Notes under the pieces: model-generated
Told to the model about the DNA's origin: nothing
Databases searched by the model: none
Seen by the model: only the letters and a program-made list of their open reading frames with translations
Assembly: GCA_938005265.1 (NCBI GenBank)
Contig: CALLOA010000008.1
Location: 1 to 64,000 of the forward strand
DNA length: 64,000 nucleotides
Origin: an uncultured Granulosicoccaceae bacterium
GTDB lineage: Bacteria; Pseudomonadota; Gammaproteobacteria; Granulosicoccales; Granulosicoccaceae
Direction: 5' to 3'
Made by a program: the position numbers and the translations under genes
Shown here: in pieces, positions 350 to 10,035 of the stretch
How the letters are laid out: each line of letters starts with the position of its first letter
Position numbering within the stretch: the stretch's first letter is position 1

Positions 350-769
350 CTAGGAGAAGAACAATGCCGGGCTGATATTGAAGCGCTGGCTGAGTGTCTC
401 GATATGCTGTCTGGTGAGCTGCCGCCCCCTTTCGTTCAGAATCTTTGACACCAGCGATTTGCTCCCGATCTCTGGCAGATCGGCCACGCCCAGGTCATGT
501 TGATCCATCAGCACACGCAGCATCGAAACGGCAGGATCCCCGCTACTGATTCGCTCGTTAAATTCAGCGAAATCGACACTCGAATTCTCCCAACGCTCGA
601 TGGATTTGGAGAGCAATTCGATCAGAATCTGCTGGTTGTCGTAGTCCTCGATCAACTCATCCATCAGAGCAAGTGCCTGCTCGTATTCATCGTCGTTGAC
701 GATCTCCACGACGAAGCTCGCCTGCTCACCCAGGCGCTGCGCGGTTTTCTTTAACGCTGAGAAACTCAT
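350..769 (-). CDS. higA: HigA-type antitoxin (XRE-like HTH)
   Basis: This is the antitoxin of a type II toxin-antitoxin pair. It should bind and neutralise the HigB toxin encoded just upstream and repress its own promoter. The 139-aa product has an N-terminal helical part and a C-terminal helix-turn-helix around residues 85-139, with the motif DLPEIGSKSLVSKILNERG followed by ISPALFF, which is typical of HigA proteins of this class. The ORF track gives a longer 189-aa frame. I start at the internal ATG at 769 because a strong ribosome binding site (GGAGGGGAGA) precedes it and because that ATG overlaps the higB stop by 4 nt, the usual coupling of such pairs. The extra 50 residues in the track are higB read in another frame. 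Confidence 0.88.
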   Translation of the reverse strand: MSFSALKKTAQRLGEQASFVVEIVNDDEYEQALALMDELIEDYDNQQILIELLSKSIERWENSSVDFAEFNERISSGDPAVSMLRVLMDQHDLGVADLPEIGSKSLVSKILNERGRQLTRQHIETLSQRFNISPALFFS

Positions 770-1086
770 CGTCTCCCCTCCTTCTCGGATCGGTATTTTG
801 CTGTCAGTTTGTCGTATTCCGCATGTGTCACTATATGTCGCACATACAACCTGTTGTGCTTGAACTCGATGAAGGCCAACAGCCTCAAGTGATTGCCACT
901 GATATCGATTACCCACCAACGGTCGAGGTAACGGAAGTTATCCAGTGACGGGAAGACCTGACGGAGTTCATCGGGAGTGCGAAACCTGCCGTTTCTCAAC
1001 ACCCGATAACAATCCTCTATCGCTTGCCGTAAGTTCGGAAATTGCACGGCTGCATCGCGAAAGGGTTTGCGTGAGATGACATGCAT
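766..1086 (-). CDS. higB: HigB-family mRNA interferase toxin
   Basis: This is a 106-aa toxin of the HigB/RelE superfamily, whose members cleave mRNA in association with the ribosome. The family pattern is visible: MHVISRKPF at the start, WWVIDISGNHLRLLAFI in the middle and the C-terminal YVRHIVTHAEYDKL. Length is normal for the family. It is the first gene of the pair; its stop overlaps the higA start by 4 nt, so the two are translationally coupled. Unlike RelBE or MazEF, the toxin precedes the antitoxin, as is usual for HigBA. Two palindromes lie 16-60 bp upstream and probably carry autoregulation. The pair sits next to broken genes, consistent with horizontal acquisition. Confidence 0.88.
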   Translation of the reverse strand: MHVISRKPFRDAAVQFPNLRQAIEDCYRVLRNGRFRTPDELRQVFPSLDNFRYLDRWWVIDISGNHLRLLAFIEFKHNRLYVRHIVTHAEYDKLTAKYRSEKEGRR

Positions 1087-1444: not shown

Positions 1445-1987
1445 CTAATAAGGGTCAGTTAGTCGGTTTGTTCTTTTTCCATTTCTACATTTGTAATTGA
1501 GTTTCATGCGTCTCGACTCCAAAAACCACACTTCGAATGTTTTCAATACATGCTTGCCAATCGTAGCTACCACCGGCAACGGCAATCTCGGGTTTGGTGT
1601 ACCGATATAGACGTTTCTCAATATTCTGCGCATCTGCAACATTCGATCACGAGGTATCGACTGTTCTATTTTCAGTAAAGCAGAATCAGCCAGATCAGCA
1701 AAAGGAATTGAATAAGTTTGTTTCACTACGGCATAGGACAAAAGAAGCGCAAATCCCTCAGAGGTAGTCAGCTTCGGAGTAAGCAGGATTGAAGCCGGGT
1801 CCAGCGACAACCCGCCACCGGGACCAGCAGACGAGTGAATTAGAAACCCCTCCTCTCGTAGAACTGCGATGTCGCGCAATACGGAGCGCTTTGACGTGCC
1901 AACTGACTCAACCAACTCTGAAACGGTTGTTGTGCCACGACGTCGTAATAGCCTGACTAATTCGTCTCGACGGGTGCGTGTATTCAT
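1445..1987 (-). pseudogene. Truncated DeoR-like HTH / WYL-domain regulator
   Basis: The first 60 residues form an HTH_11-type winged helix (RRDELVRLLRRRGTTTVSEL, then RSVLRDIAVLREEGFLI), as in YafY-type WYL regulators. The middle section fits the linker of that family. Family members are usually 220-330 aa and continue through a WYL domain that binds small ligands or nucleic acid. This frame stops at 180 aa just after the first WYL strand (KLNYKCRNGKRTNRLTDPY), exactly where unrelated sequence begins. It is therefore probably a 3'-truncated gene, although a short HTH-only product could still be made. It is divergent from the Rid-family gene, which may once have been its target. Confidence 0.6.
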
Positions 1988-2676: not shown

Positions 2677-3327
2677 CTACAGTTGCTCAATTCTAATTAC
2701 TTCATGATCAGCTTCGAGCCCATTACCAGAAGTTCTATTAACGTACTTGACCGCCGCACTGAATTCAGGGCTGAAGTACCAGTATTGGGTTCGTGACCAA
2801 TCACCGTGTTTTTGGACACATCTCACTTTGTAAGCATCTACATTACCAATTGCCACATCGATATTAACTTGACTCATCACGTCACATTTACGTGTTCTTT
2901 TGCCTTGTGCCTGCCCATGAGCATTAGCCTGTACGAATCTAAAGCTGGCAACATTTCCTACTTTAAGCGGCCAGATCTCCCCTTTTTTAGTCAAATTTCT
3001 ATTCTCACCCTTAAACCAGTCTGGATTTTTGTTGCAGTCCCACCATGAAGCAGGCGGAGATATCGGATCTTCAAGACCCTCCCATGAACAACCATTACTG
3101 GCGCGGCCGGTGTGTGTGCCATCTGCATTGATGTTCAAAATTTCATAAAAACGTTCTTCTCCATTCTTTTTATCTAGCTGATGAATCCTACTGGAAGTCA
3201 GAGCAGGCTTTTCCATTGGCTCGAGTTCCACTGAAGACGGATTTTCCTGCACAGTGCTGGTTGTAGCACAACCAGTTAGCAGAGCAATGCCGATAAAGCA
3301 TGTTGTTTTAATCAGTATATTTTTCAT
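2677..3327 (-). CDS. Putative outer-membrane lipoprotein of unknown function
   Basis: I start at the ATG at 3327, preceded by AAAGGAAA, rather than at the longer ORF start. The 216-aa product then opens with a clear lipoprotein signal, MKNILIKTTCFIGIALLTGC, with lipobox LLTGC. The mature part is polar and rich in Trp, Asn and Lys, with four further Cys that could form disulfides. It ends in strand-like segments such as YWYFSPEFSAAVKYVNR. I do not recognise a named domain. It is a single gene, convergent with the Rid gene and upstream of the secreted-protein block on the same strand. Confidence 0.75.
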   Translation of the reverse strand: MKNILIKTTCFIGIALLTGCATTSTVQENPSSVELEPMEKPALTSSRIHQLDKKNGEERFYEILNINADGTHTGRASNGCSWEGLEDPISPPASWWDCNKNPDWFKGENRNLTKKGEIWPLKVGNVASFRFVQANAHGQAQGKRTRKCDVMSQVNIDVAIGNVDAYKVRCVQKHGDWSRTQYWYFSPEFSAAVKYVNRTSGNGLEADHEVIRIEQL

Positions 3328-3510: not shown

Positions 3511-5205
3511 TCAATACTTTCGTATCATTGAAAAGTGCGAGGAAGTGATAATCCTCAACAGCAATAGCATCAGCAGAACAAGGCCCGAAGCTCCTGATCC
3601 GCCACTTCCTCCGGTAACAGTCGCGCTCGACTGACTACGCTGTTCTTCTCGTGTTAGCGCATCAGGGTCGTTTCTCAGATTGTCACCAAAGGCGACAACC
3701 GTACCAACACCATTCTCCATTCTTGAGCGAATTGAATTGAATTGTCTATCAGGCCCTTCCTGAAATACTTCAGGTTCAGCGATTTGGTGTACTACACTTT
3801 CATCTCCAATCGTAAATACTACAATTCTTTCGTCTCGATTAGTTTCAATGGATGTAAGGTAGAATTCGTCCAGCAAGGGTACAGTCTGGAAGTTGTTACA
3901 TAACTCACCACTTGCAAGTAAAGGTGTTGAATCAAAATCAGGCGCGCCGGTATCAAAGCGCTGCAGGCAGTATCGAGCTCCCGTACTACGGTCAGGATTC
4001 ATAAATATTTCTATCCGTGCCCATGCCAAACCAACGCCAGTCTCATCTAAACCACCATCAGCAAAAACATCGTACTGACTACCGGAAAGCCGAACCATCG
4101 CCGTTGCAGGTTCAGCATCATTTACCACCTCAAAAACGGTCTCACTTCTAAGGCTCATTAGTGCCTCAAGATAATCGGCTTCTCCTTCAAGGTTCAGCCT
4201 TGATTGCACCACTTCACCATCAACCGAACTAACTGTCATATTCACAGTACCGTCGACTATCGAGGGCCGGCGGTCGCCAATACCTCTAATTATCCGTTGA
4301 TCTTCGTTATTACTCAGTAATGGTGCAAGCGGTGAGCCGTTAACACGAAAATCATCGACAAAACTGTCAGTTTCTACTGCGAAAATGTTTACTACAGACA
4401 CATCTCCTTCGCCTTCTGTTGATACGTCAATAATTGATGGCTGCTCAAACGAACGCAAATTTGTATCCGTAGGAAATTGCACAACCATTGATTCACCATT
4501 AACACTGGCGGTCAAAACAGAGGTTTCACGATTGATAGATAATGCCAGCTCATAAATGCCACCTAATTCGGGAATTGTTAACGGAAAACTGGCACAATCG
4601 TTAGAATTTCCATCCAATATCAAATATTCCTGCAAACGCCCGTCCGCATCACGCTCGTCAAAGCACAGTTGCACCTGACTACCTTCCGGCCTGATTTTTA
4701 TCCTCAAATCTGATCTGACATTCCCCTCTTCTTGCGTAACACCTTCACGATCCGGGAATCCTCCATCAACACGGGAATTATGAAAATAATGCAATAAACG
4801 AATTCTCAGTTCACCCGTTTCGCTGATCGTGCTTGACACATCAGGCTGAACAATTGCACTGAACAACGTATCGATCCCGCTATCAGTATTGTATGGTGAT
4901 TCGAATGTCATGGCGCGATGAGCTGAGTTTGAATCGCCCGCTGCTCTTAGCTGAATTGAATTATCAAGCCTGATTATTTCACTTCCCGCAGATAAGTCAC
5001 CTATTTCATCATCATCCCAATATCCAACAGTCCAGAGATTGGTTTCGTTACTGAAGTCTTCCGCAAACGGATCTGCCATTACAAACGTGGGTAAGGACAG
5101 AATGAAAAGCAAGAATGATTTAGTAGCTCTGTTGGTAAACAGTCGAGCCGATAATCGCAATAAAACAGTGCCGGTAAAGCACTTTTCGGTAGGGAAAAAA
5201 ACCAT
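3511..5205 (-). CDS. Secreted repeat-domain protein A with C-terminal sorting-type tail
   Basis: The 564-aa product has an N-terminal signal (SFLLFILSLPTFVMADP after a long basic n-region). A Gly/Ser linker (TGGSGGSGASG), a hydrophobic stretch (LVLLMLLLL) and a basic end follow at the C-terminus, the layout of GlyGly-CTERM-like sorting signals. Between them lie two related halves, each carrying a spaced Cys pair (LCFDERDADG...NDC and YCLQRF...LC). It ends before the tail with DNLRNDPDALTREE, closely matching DNVRNDPAALTDEE in the adjacent paralogue. I choose ATG 5205 because GGAG lies six bases before it; ATG 5217 is the alternative. The fold is probably beta-rich. Function is unknown. A 20-bp dyad lies about 125 bp upstream. 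Confidence 0.7.
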   Translation of the reverse strand: MVFFPTEKCFTGTVLLRLSARLFTNRATKSFLLFILSLPTFVMADPFAEDFSNETNLWTVGYWDDDEIGDLSAGSEIIRLDNSIQLRAAGDSNSAHRAMTFESPYNTDSGIDTLFSAIVQPDVSSTISETGELRIRLLHYFHNSRVDGGFPDREGVTQEEGNVRSDLRIKIRPEGSQVQLCFDERDADGRLQEYLILDGNSNDCASFPLTIPELGGIYELALSINRETSVLTASVNGESMVVQFPTDTNLRSFEQPSIIDVSTEGEGDVSVVNIFAVETDSFVDDFRVNGSPLAPLLSNNEDQRIIRGIGDRRPSIVDGTVNMTVSSVDGEVVQSRLNLEGEADYLEALMSLRSETVFEVVNDAEPATAMVRLSGSQYDVFADGGLDETGVGLAWARIEIFMNPDRSTGARYCLQRFDTGAPDFDSTPLLASGELCNNFQTVPLLDEFYLTSIETNRDERIVVFTIGDESVVHQIAEPEVFQEGPDRQFNSIRSRMENGVGTVVAFGDNLRNDPDALTREEQRSQSSATVTGGSGGSGASGLVLLMLLLLRIITSSHFSMIRKY

Positions 5206-5320
5206 AGAAAACTCCATTGTTAATAAAACACAATGACTTCCATGTCGTTGAACTTTAATTATTTTGCTTTCGAGTTGATTCGTTCAACTAAAGTCTTATC
5301 GGCATAAATCAAATCACAAC

Positions 5321-5340
5321 CATCACCCTTTCAGGGGAAA
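5321..5340. promoter_or_regulatory. Dyad copy A upstream of secreted protein A
   Basis: CATCACCCTTTCAGGGGAAA is the most diverged of three copies of CATCACCC-N4-RGGGGAWR found only in this block. Its centre is about 125 bp before the chosen start of the gene ending at 3511. This is an inferred operator. Confidence 0.4.
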
Positions 5341-5485
5341 GGAAAAGCAATTTTCCACTTGTTGGAAAGAAATGTGATCTACTCACTATGTCGATTTGTA
5401 CCAACTGCTTTCCTGATATTGCATCAGAAAAACCAACCCCGAGCCAACATCGACCCGGGAGCTGGCATGGCATTTACTGCATACC

Positions 5486-7123
5486 TTAAAATATCTGCCG
5501 TCCGAGAATACGGAGAATTAGAACCAAATTTTTTCTGCGCCGGTAAAATAGATAAGTAGATGCAAACAACACTAAAGCTGGCAAGAGAGGATCGAATACT
5601 GACCTGTCTGCTATCGAACAGCCTCCACCACCCCCAGAGGTTAGGCTCGCTGCAAGTTCCTCGTCAGTGAGCGCTGCAGGATCGTTGCGTACATTATCGA
5701 ACAAACCAATAACGGTTCCTGTCGCGCCTCTCGCTATGCGGGATTGAGCCCGAACCGTTTCGCCGCGTGGAAAAATAGCAGAGTTTATAGGCAGCACCTT
5801 TGTTTCATTTCCAAGGGTAAAGATAAGAGCTCTAGCCTCTTGATCCAGATCAATTGACGCTTTATAAACTGTATCTTCCTCAACCTGCAGATCAAAAGTA
5901 GGACAACGATCATTATCTTCCCCGTCTGCCAAATCTGTAGTAACCGAGAAGTCAGCGGCATCAGAACGAATTGCACAATACTCCCCAACCAGAGCTCCGT
6001 CCGGATTTTTGATTAGCATGACGCTGGACCACACCTCGCCATTGCTGTCTTCCGGATCACTTGAGAATTCGTTATAGAAAACCCCGGAAATCCTAACCGC
6101 CGCAAAGCCTTCGCCCAGATCAACGTCTGAGTCGCTGGAGTAGAGCATTTCGGCCTCAAGGTATTCGGTCGCATTAGCCAATCGAAGAAAAGTATCGTTA
6201 TCAGAATTCGTGTCCGAGTTACTAACACTCAGCAATAGTTGCTCATTTACAATGCGTTTATCCCGTTCGGTATCAGCAGAAAAATCATCGAAGTCCCCGG
6301 TTCTGTAGCGCCCTTCCTCAGATGCCACAGCCAGCTCAATTGAACCCCAATTGGTAGAGATACTGTTTACAGAAAATTCGGCATTGTTGGCACCGTCTCG
6401 AACCCGAGCTCTGGCCAGATAGAATGGCGCTGCCACATCAAACATCTCTGTTGGTGCATCTATACGAATTTCTTCCTCATTTACACGCACAAACATCTGG
6501 CCGGCTTCCTCATCTATGCCCACCATCATGTTGTAGGTTGTATTTAGCTCTGGTACTAGCTCAAGGGTTGAGCAGTCTTCCATTCCCTCGACAGCTGGTT
6601 CGAATCCACCATCGGCCGTACGGTTTTCAAAGCAATACAGGAAGTGATCCTCACTGGGGTCTGCATACAGATAAACCTCAACATAGATGTTGACGTCTCC
6701 ATACCGGCGATCAAGTGATTCGTCGTCCTGTGCGGGACCACCGTCCGTAATGCTGTTATAAAACCTGCCCTGGATTGAATAACCTACCCTACCAGATTCC
6801 GGTCTTGTGGAGCTTGTCGTTACGCTGCTCTCTAACTGTTGCAGTACACCAGAGGGCTGGATATTAAATTCTCCTCTTTCATCATCAGTCGGATCAATAT
6901 CAACAATGGTCAATTGCAATTGACCGTTTGCGAACTTCGCCGGATCGACATTTTCGACAAGATTCCTGGCTTCGGTTCGAAAATTGATATTCACAAAATC
7001 TAGCGAGAAATCATCTGCAAAAACAGTATCTTGAGCTTGTACAGAGGTTACAGCACCTGTCAACAGACATGATGCTATTGCGACACCGGTAATTTTCGAT
7101 TGATATTTTTTTCTGACCTTCAT
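5486..7123 (-). CDS. Secreted repeat-domain protein B with GGGCS-type C-terminal tail
   Basis: The 545-aa product is a paralogue of the preceding protein A. A signal peptide (IASCLLTGAVTSVQA) is followed by two related halves, each with a Cys pair (LYCFENR...DCS and EYCAIRS...RCPTF). A C-terminal module follows: GGGGGCS, DPLLPALVLFA and YRRRK. This Gly-rich/Cys/hydrophobic/Arg arrangement resembles the JDVT-CTERM and related tripartite sorting signals, which membrane proteases process. The processing enzyme is not in this window. The halves are acidic and Asn/Ser-rich, as in surface proteins. The start has an AAAGGGAAAAA ribosome binding site. Function is unknown. It shares a 289-bp divergent region with a LuxR-type regulator. 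Confidence 0.72.
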   Translation of the reverse strand: MKVRKKYQSKITGVAIASCLLTGAVTSVQAQDTVFADDFSLDFVNINFRTEARNLVENVDPAKFANGQLQLTIVDIDPTDDERGEFNIQPSGVLQQLESSVTTSSTRPESGRVGYSIQGRFYNSITDGGPAQDDESLDRRYGDVNIYVEVYLYADPSEDHFLYCFENRTADGGFEPAVEGMEDCSTLELVPELNTTYNMMVGIDEEAGQMFVRVNEEEIRIDAPTEMFDVAAPFYLARARVRDGANNAEFSVNSISTNWGSIELAVASEEGRYRTGDFDDFSADTERDKRIVNEQLLLSVSNSDTNSDNDTFLRLANATEYLEAEMLYSSDSDVDLGEGFAAVRISGVFYNEFSSDPEDSNGEVWSSVMLIKNPDGALVGEYCAIRSDAADFSVTTDLADGEDNDRCPTFDLQVEEDTVYKASIDLDQEARALIFTLGNETKVLPINSAIFPRGETVRAQSRIARGATGTVIGLFDNVRNDPAALTDEELAASLTSGGGGGCSIADRSVFDPLLPALVLFASTYLFYRRRKNLVLILRILGRQIF

Positions 7124-7218
7124 TTTTTTCCCTTTCAGATAATTATTGTTTTCCGTGCTTCCAGCTCATTCATTCATCGGATAAGCGGTCTCAATTTTAA
7201 AAAACACAAAAAACAACG

Positions 7219-7238
7219 CATCACCCGATTGGGGGATG
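7219..7238. promoter_or_regulatory. Dyad copy B between secreted protein B and the first LuxR gene
   Basis: CATCACCCGATTGGGGGATG is the best copy of the dyad; seven of eight arm positions pair. It is centred about 105 bp upstream of secreted protein B and 184 bp upstream of the divergent LuxR-type gene. Role inferred. Confidence 0.5.
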
Positions 7239-7359
7239 AAATCTGAATATGTGCTGCCTATCCTTATATCAGTACCGTTTTGATAGGCATCTGTGACGCA
7301 CCCTGGTTAACAACATTACTTTTTGTGACATTCAACCACAGACATTCTGTGAACAGGTC

Positions 7360-7371
7360 TCTATACAAATC
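7360..7371 (+). promoter_or_regulatory. Single TCTATACAAATC motif before the short LuxR gene
   Basis: The same 12-mer occurs in a three-copy cluster upstream of the paralogous long LuxR gene (8631-8668). Shared occurrence before both paralogues suggests a common regulator site or a duplicated promoter. Confidence 0.35.
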
Positions 7372-7412
7372 ACTAAAATATATAAATTGCAGCAGCTAGT
7401 TAAGGAAAACCA

Positions 7413-8054
7413 TTGCTTGAGAATAACTACCAGGCTATTTTGGCAGTACTTGATCAATTGTATTTGGGTTTGTGTATTACCCGTGTGGATAACGTTGTGA
7501 TAGTGCGCAATGCAATGGCAGAAAGGATTTTGTTTACACACAGCGCTATAAAATTGGCACAGGACAGCAGACTGATCTGCCGTGACGCCGACAAGCAAAG
7601 ATCTCTGGAGGAAGCTTTACTATCCGCTTGCTCTGACGAATCTAGCTCGAATCATTCAAATGAAATTTTGATATCTAATGACCAAAATTGCGAACAACAT
7701 CCGCTACTAATCGAAGTATCTCCACTAAAAGATACATCTGTTGTTCACGAAGATACCACAAGGCTCGCACTGATCTCACTGCTCGACCCACAACAGATTT
7801 TGAAGTCAGACCCTACGAAAACAGCTCTTGTATTTGGTCTTACAGCAGCAGAATCAGCTGTGTGCCAGATGTTGGTTGATGGGAACACCACATCCGATAT
7901 AGCAGACCAACGTGGCGTGAGTACGGAAACAATCAAGAGCCAGATAAAGGCGGTGTTAAGGAAGTGCCACTGTAAAAAACGTTCAGACTTGATCCGGCAG
8001 GTCTGGTCACTTACCAGCCCAATGACATGCCGTATGGTCGCTTCTAAACAATAG
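7413..8054 (+). CDS. Short LuxR-type transcriptional regulator
   Basis: The 213-aa product carries a C-terminal LuxR-type HTH (about residues 145-205), with AESAVCQMLVDGNTTSDIA followed by GVSTETIKSQIKAVLRK. The N-terminal part aligns only with the middle and end of the neighbouring 385-aa regulator: NYQAILAVLDQLYLGLCI matches QYNAVLAALDHVEIGMCI there. It thus lacks the roughly 190-residue sensory N-terminus. The start is TTG at 7413, preceded by AAGGA at suitable spacing; an in-frame TAA just upstream excludes a longer form. Whether it is a natural short form or a relic of a duplication is open. The frame is intact. TCTATACAAATC lies 42 bp upstream of the start. Confidence 0.75.
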   Translation: MLENNYQAILAVLDQLYLGLCITRVDNVVIVRNAMAERILFTHSAIKLAQDSRLICRDADKQRSLEEALLSACSDESSSNHSNEILISNDQNCEQHPLLIEVSPLKDTSVVHEDTTRLALISLLDPQQILKSDPTKTALVFGLTAAESAVCQMLVDGNTTSDIADQRGVSTETIKSQIKAVLRKCHCKKRSDLIRQVWSLTSPMTCRMVASKQ

Positions 8055-8072
8055 AATTAAACTATTTAGAAG

Positions 8073-8177
8073 CTAAAAATGTGTATCTGGTTCAGCCGAT
8101 GTAACCTCAAGAGTAGTTTGGCAGGCTGTACCAACCAGAATGAATGAAACCATAAATCCGAGCATAATTCTTTTCAT
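8073..8177 (-). CDS. Very small putative lipoprotein (34 aa)
   Basis: This frame is too short for the ORF track. The product begins MKRIMLGFMVSFILVGTAC and then a short polar tail ending in DTHF. A Lys/Arg n-region, a hydrophobic core and a Cys at residue 19 give it the look of an entericidin-sized lipoprotein, although the residue at -3 of the lipobox is Gly rather than Leu. A weak GGA precedes the ATG. It is antisense to nothing and lies between the two LuxR genes. It may belong to the same regulated block. Low certainty. Confidence 0.35.
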   Translation of the reverse strand: MKRIMLGFMVSFILVGTACQTTLEVTSAEPDTHF

Positions 8178-8229
8178 TCTGTATCCGCGGTTTCATGTTC
8201 AATCTGAACCATGAATATTTTTCAAAATA

Positions 8230-8299
8230 TTTTGGGGATCACCTGTTTCCCTGACTATGAATAACCTACCATGGCTTGATTCCATGGCAATCCCCAAAA
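8230..8299 (+). terminator. Long inverted repeat, possible terminator of the short LuxR gene
   Basis: TTTTGGGGAT (8230-8239) pairs perfectly with ATCCCCAAAA (8290-8299), and the right arm is followed by TTTTTAT. The 50-nt loop carries two CCATGGC copies that can pair internally. It could be an end of transcription or a structured small RNA. Confidence 0.4.
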
Positions 8300-8377
8300 T
8301 TTTTATAGCAATGCAATGTCTACGACACAGCTGCATGTAGTGTTCTATTTAAATCTAGCTAACTTGGTGTCTGGTTT

Positions 8378-8397
8378 CATCACCCACATGGGGGATA
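8378..8397. promoter_or_regulatory. Dyad copy C between the LuxR genes
   Basis: CATCACCCACATGGGGGATA has the same half-sites and 4-bp spacing as copy B. It lies about 490 bp upstream of the long LuxR gene and 210 bp upstream of the small lipoprotein frame. Confidence 0.45.
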
Positions 8398-8399
8398 TG

Positions 8400-8877
8400 T
8401 TGAAGTAAATTTGTAAAGTAAATCGCAAAAAGCATTTTTAGTTGCAGGGCATGGCTGCAATAGAGGGAACATCCGACAACGAGCAGGGCAAAATTCGTAA
8501 TATTTTTGAAACCAGACAAAGCTAAGCAAGAAATGAGAAATTATTGATCAATAAATCTCAGGGTAATTCAGCTCACCATTAGACGAATGATTTATTCCAT
8601 GGCGCGTCCAAACTTGCTTTCCAAACCTTATCTATACAAAATCTATACAAATCAAAATCTATACAAATTCCGAATTATATACAGTTTGATAATGGTTTAA
8701 AATTGGGACGACAGATATTTGTAGTGTCTATAATATTTAAATAAGATTAGCTCTTGGTGATCAGAAAAGGAAACAGCATGCGTTTTCAGATAACGCATGG
8801 AACAACATAAATGATTAGAGTGGTGATGTAATTGTTGTAGGCCGCCTGTTTTGAATCAGAAAAGTAGGATTTTAACA
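8400..8877. other. Long non-coding leader region of the long LuxR gene
   Basis: No gene is seen. It is AT-rich and holds a perfect 14-bp palindrome TTATTGATCAATAA at 8541-8554 and the TCTATACAAA cluster at 8631-8668. The length of the untranslated region suggests complex control of the downstream regulator. Confidence 0.45.
8631..8668 (+). repeat. Three-copy TCTATACAAA repeat
   Basis: Copies start at 8631, 8642 and 8658 (TCTATACAAAA, TCTATACAAATC, TCTATACAAATT). The unit also occurs once at 7360 before the paralogous gene. Spacings of 11 and 16 bp do not fit simple slippage alone, so an operator array is plausible. Confidence 0.5.
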
Positions 8878-10035
8878 ATGCTCGCCCACGAAGACTCACT
8901 TTCTGTGCTACCCGACATCTATGATTCCGCAGTTGAATCAAGTATTTGGGGAAACACTCTCGAAAAGAGCGCGCATGCCCTAGGGGCTAGAGGCGCAATT
9001 CTCTTAATCATTGATCAGCGCCCTGAGGGACGATATCAGGTTAATCACTTCAGTAGAATCTGGTCTCGGGCACCCGAAAGAGCAGCTATGTACACTGAGA
9101 AATATGGGCACTATGAGAAACCTGTGTGGGACCATTTATTTACCAATCCCAAACAGAATTTAATCCTCGATACGGATTTCTGGGCGAATGAACCAGACTT
9201 GAGGAACAGACCTGACTACCAATATCTGAGTGAAAACGTTGGAATAGTCCATAAGTGTGCTGCACGCTTAAACGACAATATGAGCTGGTGGGACACACTC
9301 GTCGTACATTTTGACCAGAAATTAAAAGCCATCCCAGCCGATAGTGTCGCCGGCATCAAACAATTGCTTCCCCACGTTGCCAAATCAGTCGAACTATCTC
9401 GCACGTTCGATATATTGAAAGAACAATACAATGCAGTTTTAGCTGCTCTGGATCATGTAGAGATTGGTATGTGTATCGCCTTACAAAACGGTGATCTTGT
9501 GGTGCGCAATGCCGAAGCCAATCGTATACTGGGAGAAAAAGACGGGCTTCGCTTGTCGTCTCAGGGCAAGTTGTTCAGCCATCAACCAGAACGAAATGCT
9601 CAACTTCAAAAAGCCATTGAAGAAGCCAGTCAAACTGCTATCGGTAAAAATTTGACACACGAATTTCTGTTTGTAAATGAGAGGAAATCAACAGAGGATC
9701 CCCTACTCATTGAGGTTGCACCTTTGACTGATTATTCCGGTGAACTGGAAAATCAAATGAAAGGAGCCCTTGTTACCTTGATCGATCCGGCCAACACTCA
9801 ACCTTTTTCTGTTGACAGGGCCGTAATCGCTTACCAGCTGACAAAAGCTGAAGGCGAAGTCTGCCAATTGCTCGTTGAAGGGAATGCCACCTCAGTTATA
9901 GCCGAGATCCGGAGTGTGAGTCCGGAAACAATAAAAACACAGGTCAAATCAATTTTCCGCAAGACGGCCTGCACTCGTCGCTCCGATCTGATTCGGCTTG
10001 TACTTAAAACCACGCCACCAATTAGTCAATCATAA
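8878..10035 (+). CDS. LuxR-type transcriptional regulator with sensory N-terminal region
   Basis: The 385-aa product has a roughly 180-aa N-terminal domain of unknown ligand, then a PAS-like middle (VVRNAEANRIL) shared with the short paralogue. A C-terminal LuxR HTH follows (AEGEVCQLLVEGNATSVIA, then VSPETIKTQVKSIFRKTACT). There is no response-regulator receiver domain and no transmembrane segment, so it is probably a cytoplasmic one-component regulator. I start at ATG 8878, which has AGGA eight bases before it, instead of the TTG at 8851 used by the ORF track. A shared middle and HTH show it arose with the gene at 7413 by duplication. Likely target: the local 20-bp dyads (inference). Confidence 0.8.
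   Translation: MLAHEDSLSVLPDIYDSAVESSIWGNTLEKSAHALGARGAILLIIDQRPEGRYQVNHFSRIWSRAPERAAMYTEKYGHYEKPVWDHLFTNPKQNLILDTDFWANEPDLRNRPDYQYLSENVGIVHKCAARLNDNMSWWDTLVVHFDQKLKAIPADSVAGIKQLLPHVAKSVELSRTFDILKEQYNAVLAALDHVEIGMCIALQNGDLVVRNAEANRILGEKDGLRLSSQGKLFSHQPERNAQLQKAIEEASQTAIGKNLTHEFLFVNERKSTEDPLLIEVAPLTDYSGELENQMKGALVTLIDPANTQPFSVDRAVIAYQLTKAEGEVCQLLVEGNATSVIAEIRSVSPETIKTQVKSIFRKTACTRRSDLIRLVLKTTPPISQS

Follow-up and report, generated by a model that had tools for sequence, protein, structure and literature searches.

What controls, and what is controlled by, a short palindrome that recurs among a few adjoining genes for secreted and LuxR-type proteins? The question is raised by the first 64,000 nucleotides of contig CALLOA010000008.1 (assembly GCA_938005265.1, an uncultured Granulosicoccaceae bacterium), a stretch referred to here as the window, in which a compact block at 3511-10035 holds two secreted-protein genes, two LuxR-type regulator genes and three copies of a 20-bp dyad. 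Our analysis makes it likely that the block represents, in this genome, a small cell-surface regulon that extends across the family and is activated at the dyad by one-component LuxR-type proteins. The genes and sites concerned are as follows.

2677-3327, minus strand: lipoprotein gene, ~216 aa, lipobox LLTGC, on the same strand as the 3511-5217 gene and downstream of it
3511-5217, minus strand: secreted protein of up to 568 aa with two lectin-like modules; C-terminus hydrophobic and rich in glycine
5321-5340, no strand: dyad copy 1, asymmetric and weaker, 5' of the 3511-5217 gene
5486-7123, minus strand: secreted protein of 545 aa, two lectin-like modules, JDVT-CTERM at residues 497-531
7219-7238, no strand: dyad copy 2, perfect, between the divergent genes for the 545-aa secreted protein and the 213-aa LuxR protein
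7413-8054, plus strand: short LuxR-type protein of 213 aa, with only the PAS-like and helix-turn-helix (HTH) part
8378-8397, no strand: dyad copy 3, perfect, between both LuxR genes, with 454 bp separating it from the earliest start codon available to the larger gene
8851-10035, plus strand: full-length LuxR-type regulator, 394 aa from TTG or 385 aa from ATG at 8878, with GAF-like, PAS-like and LuxR HTH domains

A preliminary description of the locus, made from the letters alone, had reported the dyad CATCACCC-N4-RGGGGAWR at 5321, 7219 and 8378, the last between the LuxR genes, and had held it to be private to the block. All three sites are found where they were placed, with 0 mismatches each. 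Measured to the earliest start codon that each secreted gene allows, the dyads lie ~95 bp (7219) and ~103 bp (5321) upstream, which is consistent with the ~105 and ~125 bp given earlier once the choice of start codon is considered, and the 7219 dyad is common to the divergent 213-aa LuxR gene, 174 bp away. Matches with up to 3 mismatches number seven in the window, against 2.3 expected and a count that 0 of 100 shuffles reach; away from the three sites, and reverse readings of these excepted, the best of them carry 3 mismatches. A scan of all 212 contigs of the assembly (4.9 Mb, 91% complete) at up to 2 mismatches returned no exact dyad beyond these three, the next-best match having 1 mismatch and lying inside a coding open reading frame (ORF) of contig C162; the three near-miss sites of this genome that were fetched, on C14, C33 and C162, all overlap coding ORFs. 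The symmetrised core ATCMCCCNNNNGGGKGAT (ATCMCCC-N4-GGGKGAT) has just two exact sites in the genome, at 7220 and 8379, and the 5321 copy scores 13.7 on a position weight matrix (PWM) for which the 99.9% background quantile is 8.4.

The distribution of the dyad was followed in 48 Granulosicoccaceae genomes, with ~365 other Gammaproteobacteria for comparison. The exact 18-bp core occurs at 29 sites in 17 of the 48 family genomes, as compared with a single site for its reversed control. The 20-bp form has ~14 sites in these other genomes, about 1 per 25 genomes, and the 1.5-kb flanks fetched around these sites contain no homologue of any component of the system. A chance origin, or a genome-wide repeat, is ruled out as the source of the dyad by the shuffles, the scan of its own genome and these family counts. 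Most family sites lie 60-125 bp upstream of genes for GAF-like/PAS/LuxR-HTH regulators, secreted-family proteins or lipoproteins; downstream of the 29 sites the genes encode mainly LuxR homologues, multi-module secreted proteins, relatives of the window lipoprotein and other small lipoproteins. Leave-one-out PWM scores reach at least 13 upstream of 11 LuxR, 10 secreted and 6 lipoprotein genes, a level that not one of 2905 background windows attains; the LuxR count excludes L095 (131 aa), because its dyad belongs to a divergent secreted gene. The preliminary description had proposed a search for the same neighbourhood in relatives, and the linkage of LuxR gene, dyad and secreted gene does recur in other genera of the family. 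In genome G005 the LuxR and secreted genes adjoin with one perfect dyad each; in G058 a single dyad separates a divergent LuxR/secreted pair, as at 7219; and in G068 a dyad is followed by the lipoprotein gene and then by the secreted gene.

The position of the dyad within promoters bears on its role. When promoters are oriented by their genes, a -10-like hexamer (TATAGT, TAGACT, TATACT and similar) begins 20 bp past the dyad: the mean -10 score is +1.2 at offset 20 and nowhere else between offsets 0 and 59 exceeds -2.5. After removal of near-identical promoters, the best hexamer falls at exactly 20 in 9 of 31 (p=1.4e-9) and at 19-21 in 13 of 31 (p=1.1e-9), p-values that are optimistic because the remaining genomes are still related. 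No -35 consensus is seen at the expected place, where the hexamer opens with the ATG or ATA that is conserved in the dyad arm. A -10 at offset 20 puts the centre of the dyad near -42, where the -35 element would otherwise lie. The lux box, in its class II (ambidextrous) arrangement, occupies a position near -42.5. As read from the sequences, the predicted promoters have this class II geometry, with a dyad near -42 and fixed -10 spacing, and direct activation by LuxR proteins is therefore the best explanation for the placement. The corresponding hexamers in the window, together with a short ORF, are these.

5295-5300, minus strand: weak -10-like hexamer GATAAG, 20 bp past the 5321 dyad, score -0.5
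7194-7199, minus strand: -10-like hexamer TAAAAT, 19 bp past the 7219 dyad, toward the 545-aa gene, score 8.0
7259-7264, plus strand: -10-like hexamer TATCCT, 20 bp past the 7219 dyad, toward the 213-aa LuxR gene, score 3.2
8352-8357, minus strand: -10-like hexamer TAGATT, 20 bp past the 8378 dyad, score 5.9
8073-8177, minus strand: 34-aa ORF, with little beyond a lipoprotein signal sequence (translation MKRIMLGFMVSFILVGTACQTT...)

The 7219 dyad thus has -10-like hexamers on both strands, one for each of the genes that it separates. At 8378 the correctly spaced hexamer lies on the minus strand only, and none is present on the plus strand, toward the 394-aa LuxR gene; on this ground the 8378 dyad is rejected as the promoter of that gene, from which it seems to face away. 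Its minus-strand hexamer points toward the 34-aa ORF, which we conjecture is possibly the remnant of a target gene of this third dyad. Separately, TCTATACAAATC-like words are repeated at 8610-8720 and 7362-7376, upstream of both LuxR genes.

The two LuxR proteins of the window share 39% identity over their last ~205 residues, the 213-aa protein being without the N-terminal sensor domain. The GerE HTH (PF00196) scores above its cut-off in both and is matched in all 25 aligned homologues; Pfam gives no family for the other three proteins of the block (two secreted, one lipoprotein). The AlphaFold model of the 394-aa protein has a predicted local distance difference test (pLDDT) of 86 and a predicted template modelling score (pTM) of 0.56, and because of the latter the arrangement of its domains is uncertain. 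Within it, Foldseek likens the N-terminal domain to a GAF or autoinducer-binding fold (CepR2, TMt 0.68), and matches the PAS-like and LuxR HTH part to VqmA (6ugl, 6ide, 7dwm) and EL222. PAS models match several of the homologues, Autoind_bind is absent from the 25 homologues at E 0.1, and no receiver domain is matched in the window proteins or their homologues. Hence these are one-component regulators, as had been proposed at the outset, with predicted GAF-like, PAS and LuxR HTH domains, and the absence of Autoind_bind and receiver domains rules out their identification as acyl-homoserine lactone receptors or response regulators. The nearest named homologues belong to Granulosicoccaceae and Granulosicoccus metagenome-assembled genomes (MAGs). 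Two homologues carry in-frame stops (G006:C126:5804-6934, one TGA; G004:C145:10279-11175, four TAA) and these, together with the sensor-less 213-aa copy, suggest that some copies of the regulator decay.

The secreted proteins are indeed paralogous, as first supposed (28% identity, E=2e-27), and their description as surface proteins gains from the JDVT-CTERM signal (NF033191, NCBIfam) at the C terminus of the 545-aa protein, which scores 47 bits against a cut-off of 27. The partner protease MrtJ (NF033192) is encoded in the same genome, on contig C6, with 102.8 bits against a cut-off of 75. The tail of the 3511-5217 protein resembles a sorting signal and matches no sorting model, and several secreted homologues have only weak or other C-terminal tails. 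Each window protein contains two copies, and many relatives four, of a ~180-aa module found in 13 of the 48 family genomes and in 1 of the ~365 other Gammaproteobacteria. The module has no Pfam family and no sequence relative in the Protein Data Bank (PDB), so that a solved relative by sequence, which was sought, can be discarded; its model (pLDDT 88) is a ConA-like jelly-roll beta-sandwich (Foldseek E 1.8e-6 to 8e-5). The nearest folds, at template modelling (TM) scores of 0.28-0.55 and identities of 7-14%, are those of alginate lyases, GH16 enzymes, legume lectins, CBM66 and the staphylococcal adhesins SraP and Aap. Neither Pfam nor the PDB supports membership of the L-type lectin, GH16 or PL36 families at the level of sequence, and the likeness is one of fold.

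Since the matches include the alginate lyases Aly36B and PyAly, xyloglucanases and carrageenases, the secreted proteins might be enzymes acting on algal polysaccharides, either lyases or GH16-like hydrolases, a reading that is compatible with the regulon and to which we give a minor chance. It fits with the habitat of the genus, members of which live on kelp (PMC9238374). On the blades of bull kelp, Granulosicoccus accounts for an average of 40% of recruited metagenomic reads (PMC9238374); the family is marine and often lives on seaweed, a link that rests on literature for the family and not on the organism of the window. The TM scores and identities are nonetheless low, the same fold is found in the lectin, CBM66, SraP and Aap modules that are also among the matches, and no set of catalytic residues is conserved among 25 modules, where only one Gly and one Asp reach 90%. 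The lack of such a set favours glycan binding over catalysis, and we infer that the modules probably bind glycans rather than cleave them.

The lipoprotein at 2677-3327 broadens the unit beyond the two gene pairs. Its family has homologues in 16 of the 48 family genomes, with dyads upstream of 6 of them, and in relatives these homologues stand beside secreted genes, beside LuxR genes or behind a dyad of their own; because they adjoin secreted genes or carry dyads, we assign the lipoprotein to the unit. The block is not, then, the self-contained system that it was first taken to be, as the dyads of relatives also front other lipoproteins. Among the less frequent dyad-fronted genes are those for a few more exported proteins: a TSP3/peptidoglycan-binding lipoprotein and a trypsin-like protein (L122 4715-6097, L144 6069-8849), both possible targets, and a PepSY-domain protein (L153 1951-2451), a possible further target, between which and a LuxR gene a dyad lies. 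Small lipoproteins of ~130 aa near dyads (L145-L149), one with a sub-threshold DUF995 match, might be a fourth class of targets.

Several observations weigh against activation by the linked LuxR proteins, besides the relatedness of the genomes, which makes the observations behind the p-values less independent. Genomes G014 (97% complete), G018 and G068 (99%) possess dyads and targets without a LuxR protein of this clade, and G003 has a dyad with neither. The co-occurrence of exact sites and LuxR clade per genome is modest (11/17 vs 10/31, p=0.04); about half of the LuxR homologues, the 394-aa protein of the window included, have no dyad within 400 bp, and several LuxR subclades have none. Sites L125, L143 and L154 have no obvious target. 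The preliminary description had named relatives with secreted genes and without LuxR genes or dyads as evidence against its own proposal, and such cases exist in part: of 19 secreted genes whose 5' end is intact, ~7 have no dyad, and G014 and G068, with dyads and targets, are without the clade LuxR. Lastly, the -42 position would in principle also suit the site of a repressor.

These exceptions lead to the view that the dyad is a promoter-bound activator site read by another regulator, of which the linked LuxR genes are merely targets, and we regard this as improbable. The four genomes that keep dyads in the absence of any LuxR of this clade speak for it, as do the recognition-helix residues, which differ among dyad-carrying LuxR homologues. 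Against it, LuxR genes carry the dyad more often than any other class and frequently adjoin other targets, the lux-box geometry is that used by the LuxR-type HTH, and MAG incompleteness and loss of the regulator can account for some of the missing genes. The orphan dyads may be explained by other regulators reading the site in some genomes, by gaps in the assemblies or by regulator loss. Some LuxR-type proteins repress, and a palindrome beside the -10 overlaps the footprint of RNA polymerase, yet a repression operator, with LuxR occluding the promoter until released by a signal, seems quite unlikely when the dyad keeps one fixed phase to the -10, whereas repressor sites usually vary in position, and when a promoter without a -35 consensus usually needs an activator.

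With activation by LuxR proteins at the dyad as the preferred reading, we propose that the activator, sensing through its GAF-like and PAS domains, would bind YATCMCCC-N4-GGGKGATR as a dimer. The dyad would stand in for the -35 element and the bound protein would recruit RNA polymerase, as at the lux box. Its targets would be secreted lectin-like beta-sandwich proteins, lipoproteins and, in many relatives, the regulator genes themselves, which in those genomes would create a positive-feedback switch. The 545-aa protein would be exported by the Sec pathway, would have its JDVT-CTERM processed by the intramembrane protease MrtJ and would be displayed on the surface, where it would probably bind polysaccharide. 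A more specific scenario, which we put forward tentatively, is that the GAF-PAS-LuxR sensors read a small molecule of the algal host or the community and switch on, with positive feedback, a coat of tandem lectins and lipoproteins for the colonisation of host surfaces in the Granulosicoccaceae.

The history of the block departs from the earlier suggestion that regulator and target pairs had been duplicated together. In phylogenetic trees the nearest kin of the 545-aa protein are proteins of G011 and G064 (100/100) rather than its local paralogue, and the 394-aa LuxR pairs with a protein of G033 (96/99), not with the 213-aa LuxR. The trees therefore lead us to reject a recent joint duplication of regulator and target genes in this lineage. 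Both families are absent, at the thresholds used, from the two other genomes of the same genus, and the block is therefore patchily distributed, by loss or transfer. The preliminary interpretation is in sum partly supported, being right in outline and wrong in three details. Adjoining the block is a toxin-antitoxin pair at 350-1086 (minus strand), made up of a HigB-type toxin (PF09907, 87 bits) and, after it, an ORF that is probably antitoxin-like, and at 1445-1987 (minus strand) a 180-aa DeoR/HTH_11-type regulator whose C-terminus looks truncated.

Full-text searches of the literature gave no described LuxR regulon for Granulosicoccus or its family, and nothing relevant on the motif. A dyad standing before sensor-regulator, lectin-like and lipoprotein genes points to an undescribed programme of cell-surface remodelling, and with a defined site, a family of regulators and a handful of surface targets in hand, attachment or host recognition would become directly testable in this group. 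The ~180-aa module represents a lectin-like domain that Pfam does not contain and that is almost confined to the Granulosicoccaceae.

Among known systems, the closest parallel is with the class II lux-box activators of the LuxR type, which share with the system described here a ~20-bp palindrome near -42, a fixed -10, the lack of a -35 box, the GerE HTH and autoregulation. Unlike the lux box, the dyad is G/C-rich (CATCMCCC-N4-GGGKGATG), which would add a binding specificity to LuxR-type regulators, and in place of Autoind_bind, undetected by sequence, the proteins have predicted GAF-like and PAS sensors; no LuxI partner was seen nearby, none having been sought. VqmA of Vibrio cholerae, a PAS and LuxR HTH receptor of 3,5-dimethylpyrazin-2-ol (DPO), has an architecture that fits the 213-aa protein as well as the C-terminal portion of its longer counterpart, and its site is a G-run palindrome, AGGGGGGATTTCCCCCCT (PMC8284805), G-runs being present in both. 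The order of the arms is nonetheless opposite, with the C-run first here, the long regulator has an extra N-terminal domain, and VqmA controls a small RNA whereas surface proteins are the targets here. EpsA (TIGR03020), associated with XrtB/PEP-CTERM, is likewise a LuxR-type regulator tied to C-terminally sorted surface proteins, but the sorting system differs, and matches to its model are weak (21 bits against a cut-off of 170) and confined to the C-terminal region that includes the HTH. On the side of sorting, a signal above cut-off and MrtJ in the genome agree with the JDVT-CTERM/MrtJ system, related to MYXO-CTERM and GlyGly-CTERM, in which MrtJ is the protease partner in a two-gene neighbourhood (PMC11980579); here MrtJ lies on another contig. 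The modules, finally, are alike in their beta-sandwich to the ConA-like folds of L-type lectins, GH16, PL36 and the SraP and Aap modules, without kinship in sequence. What is known, then, is the LuxR-type activator with its box; what is new is the regulon, its binding site and the lectin-like module.

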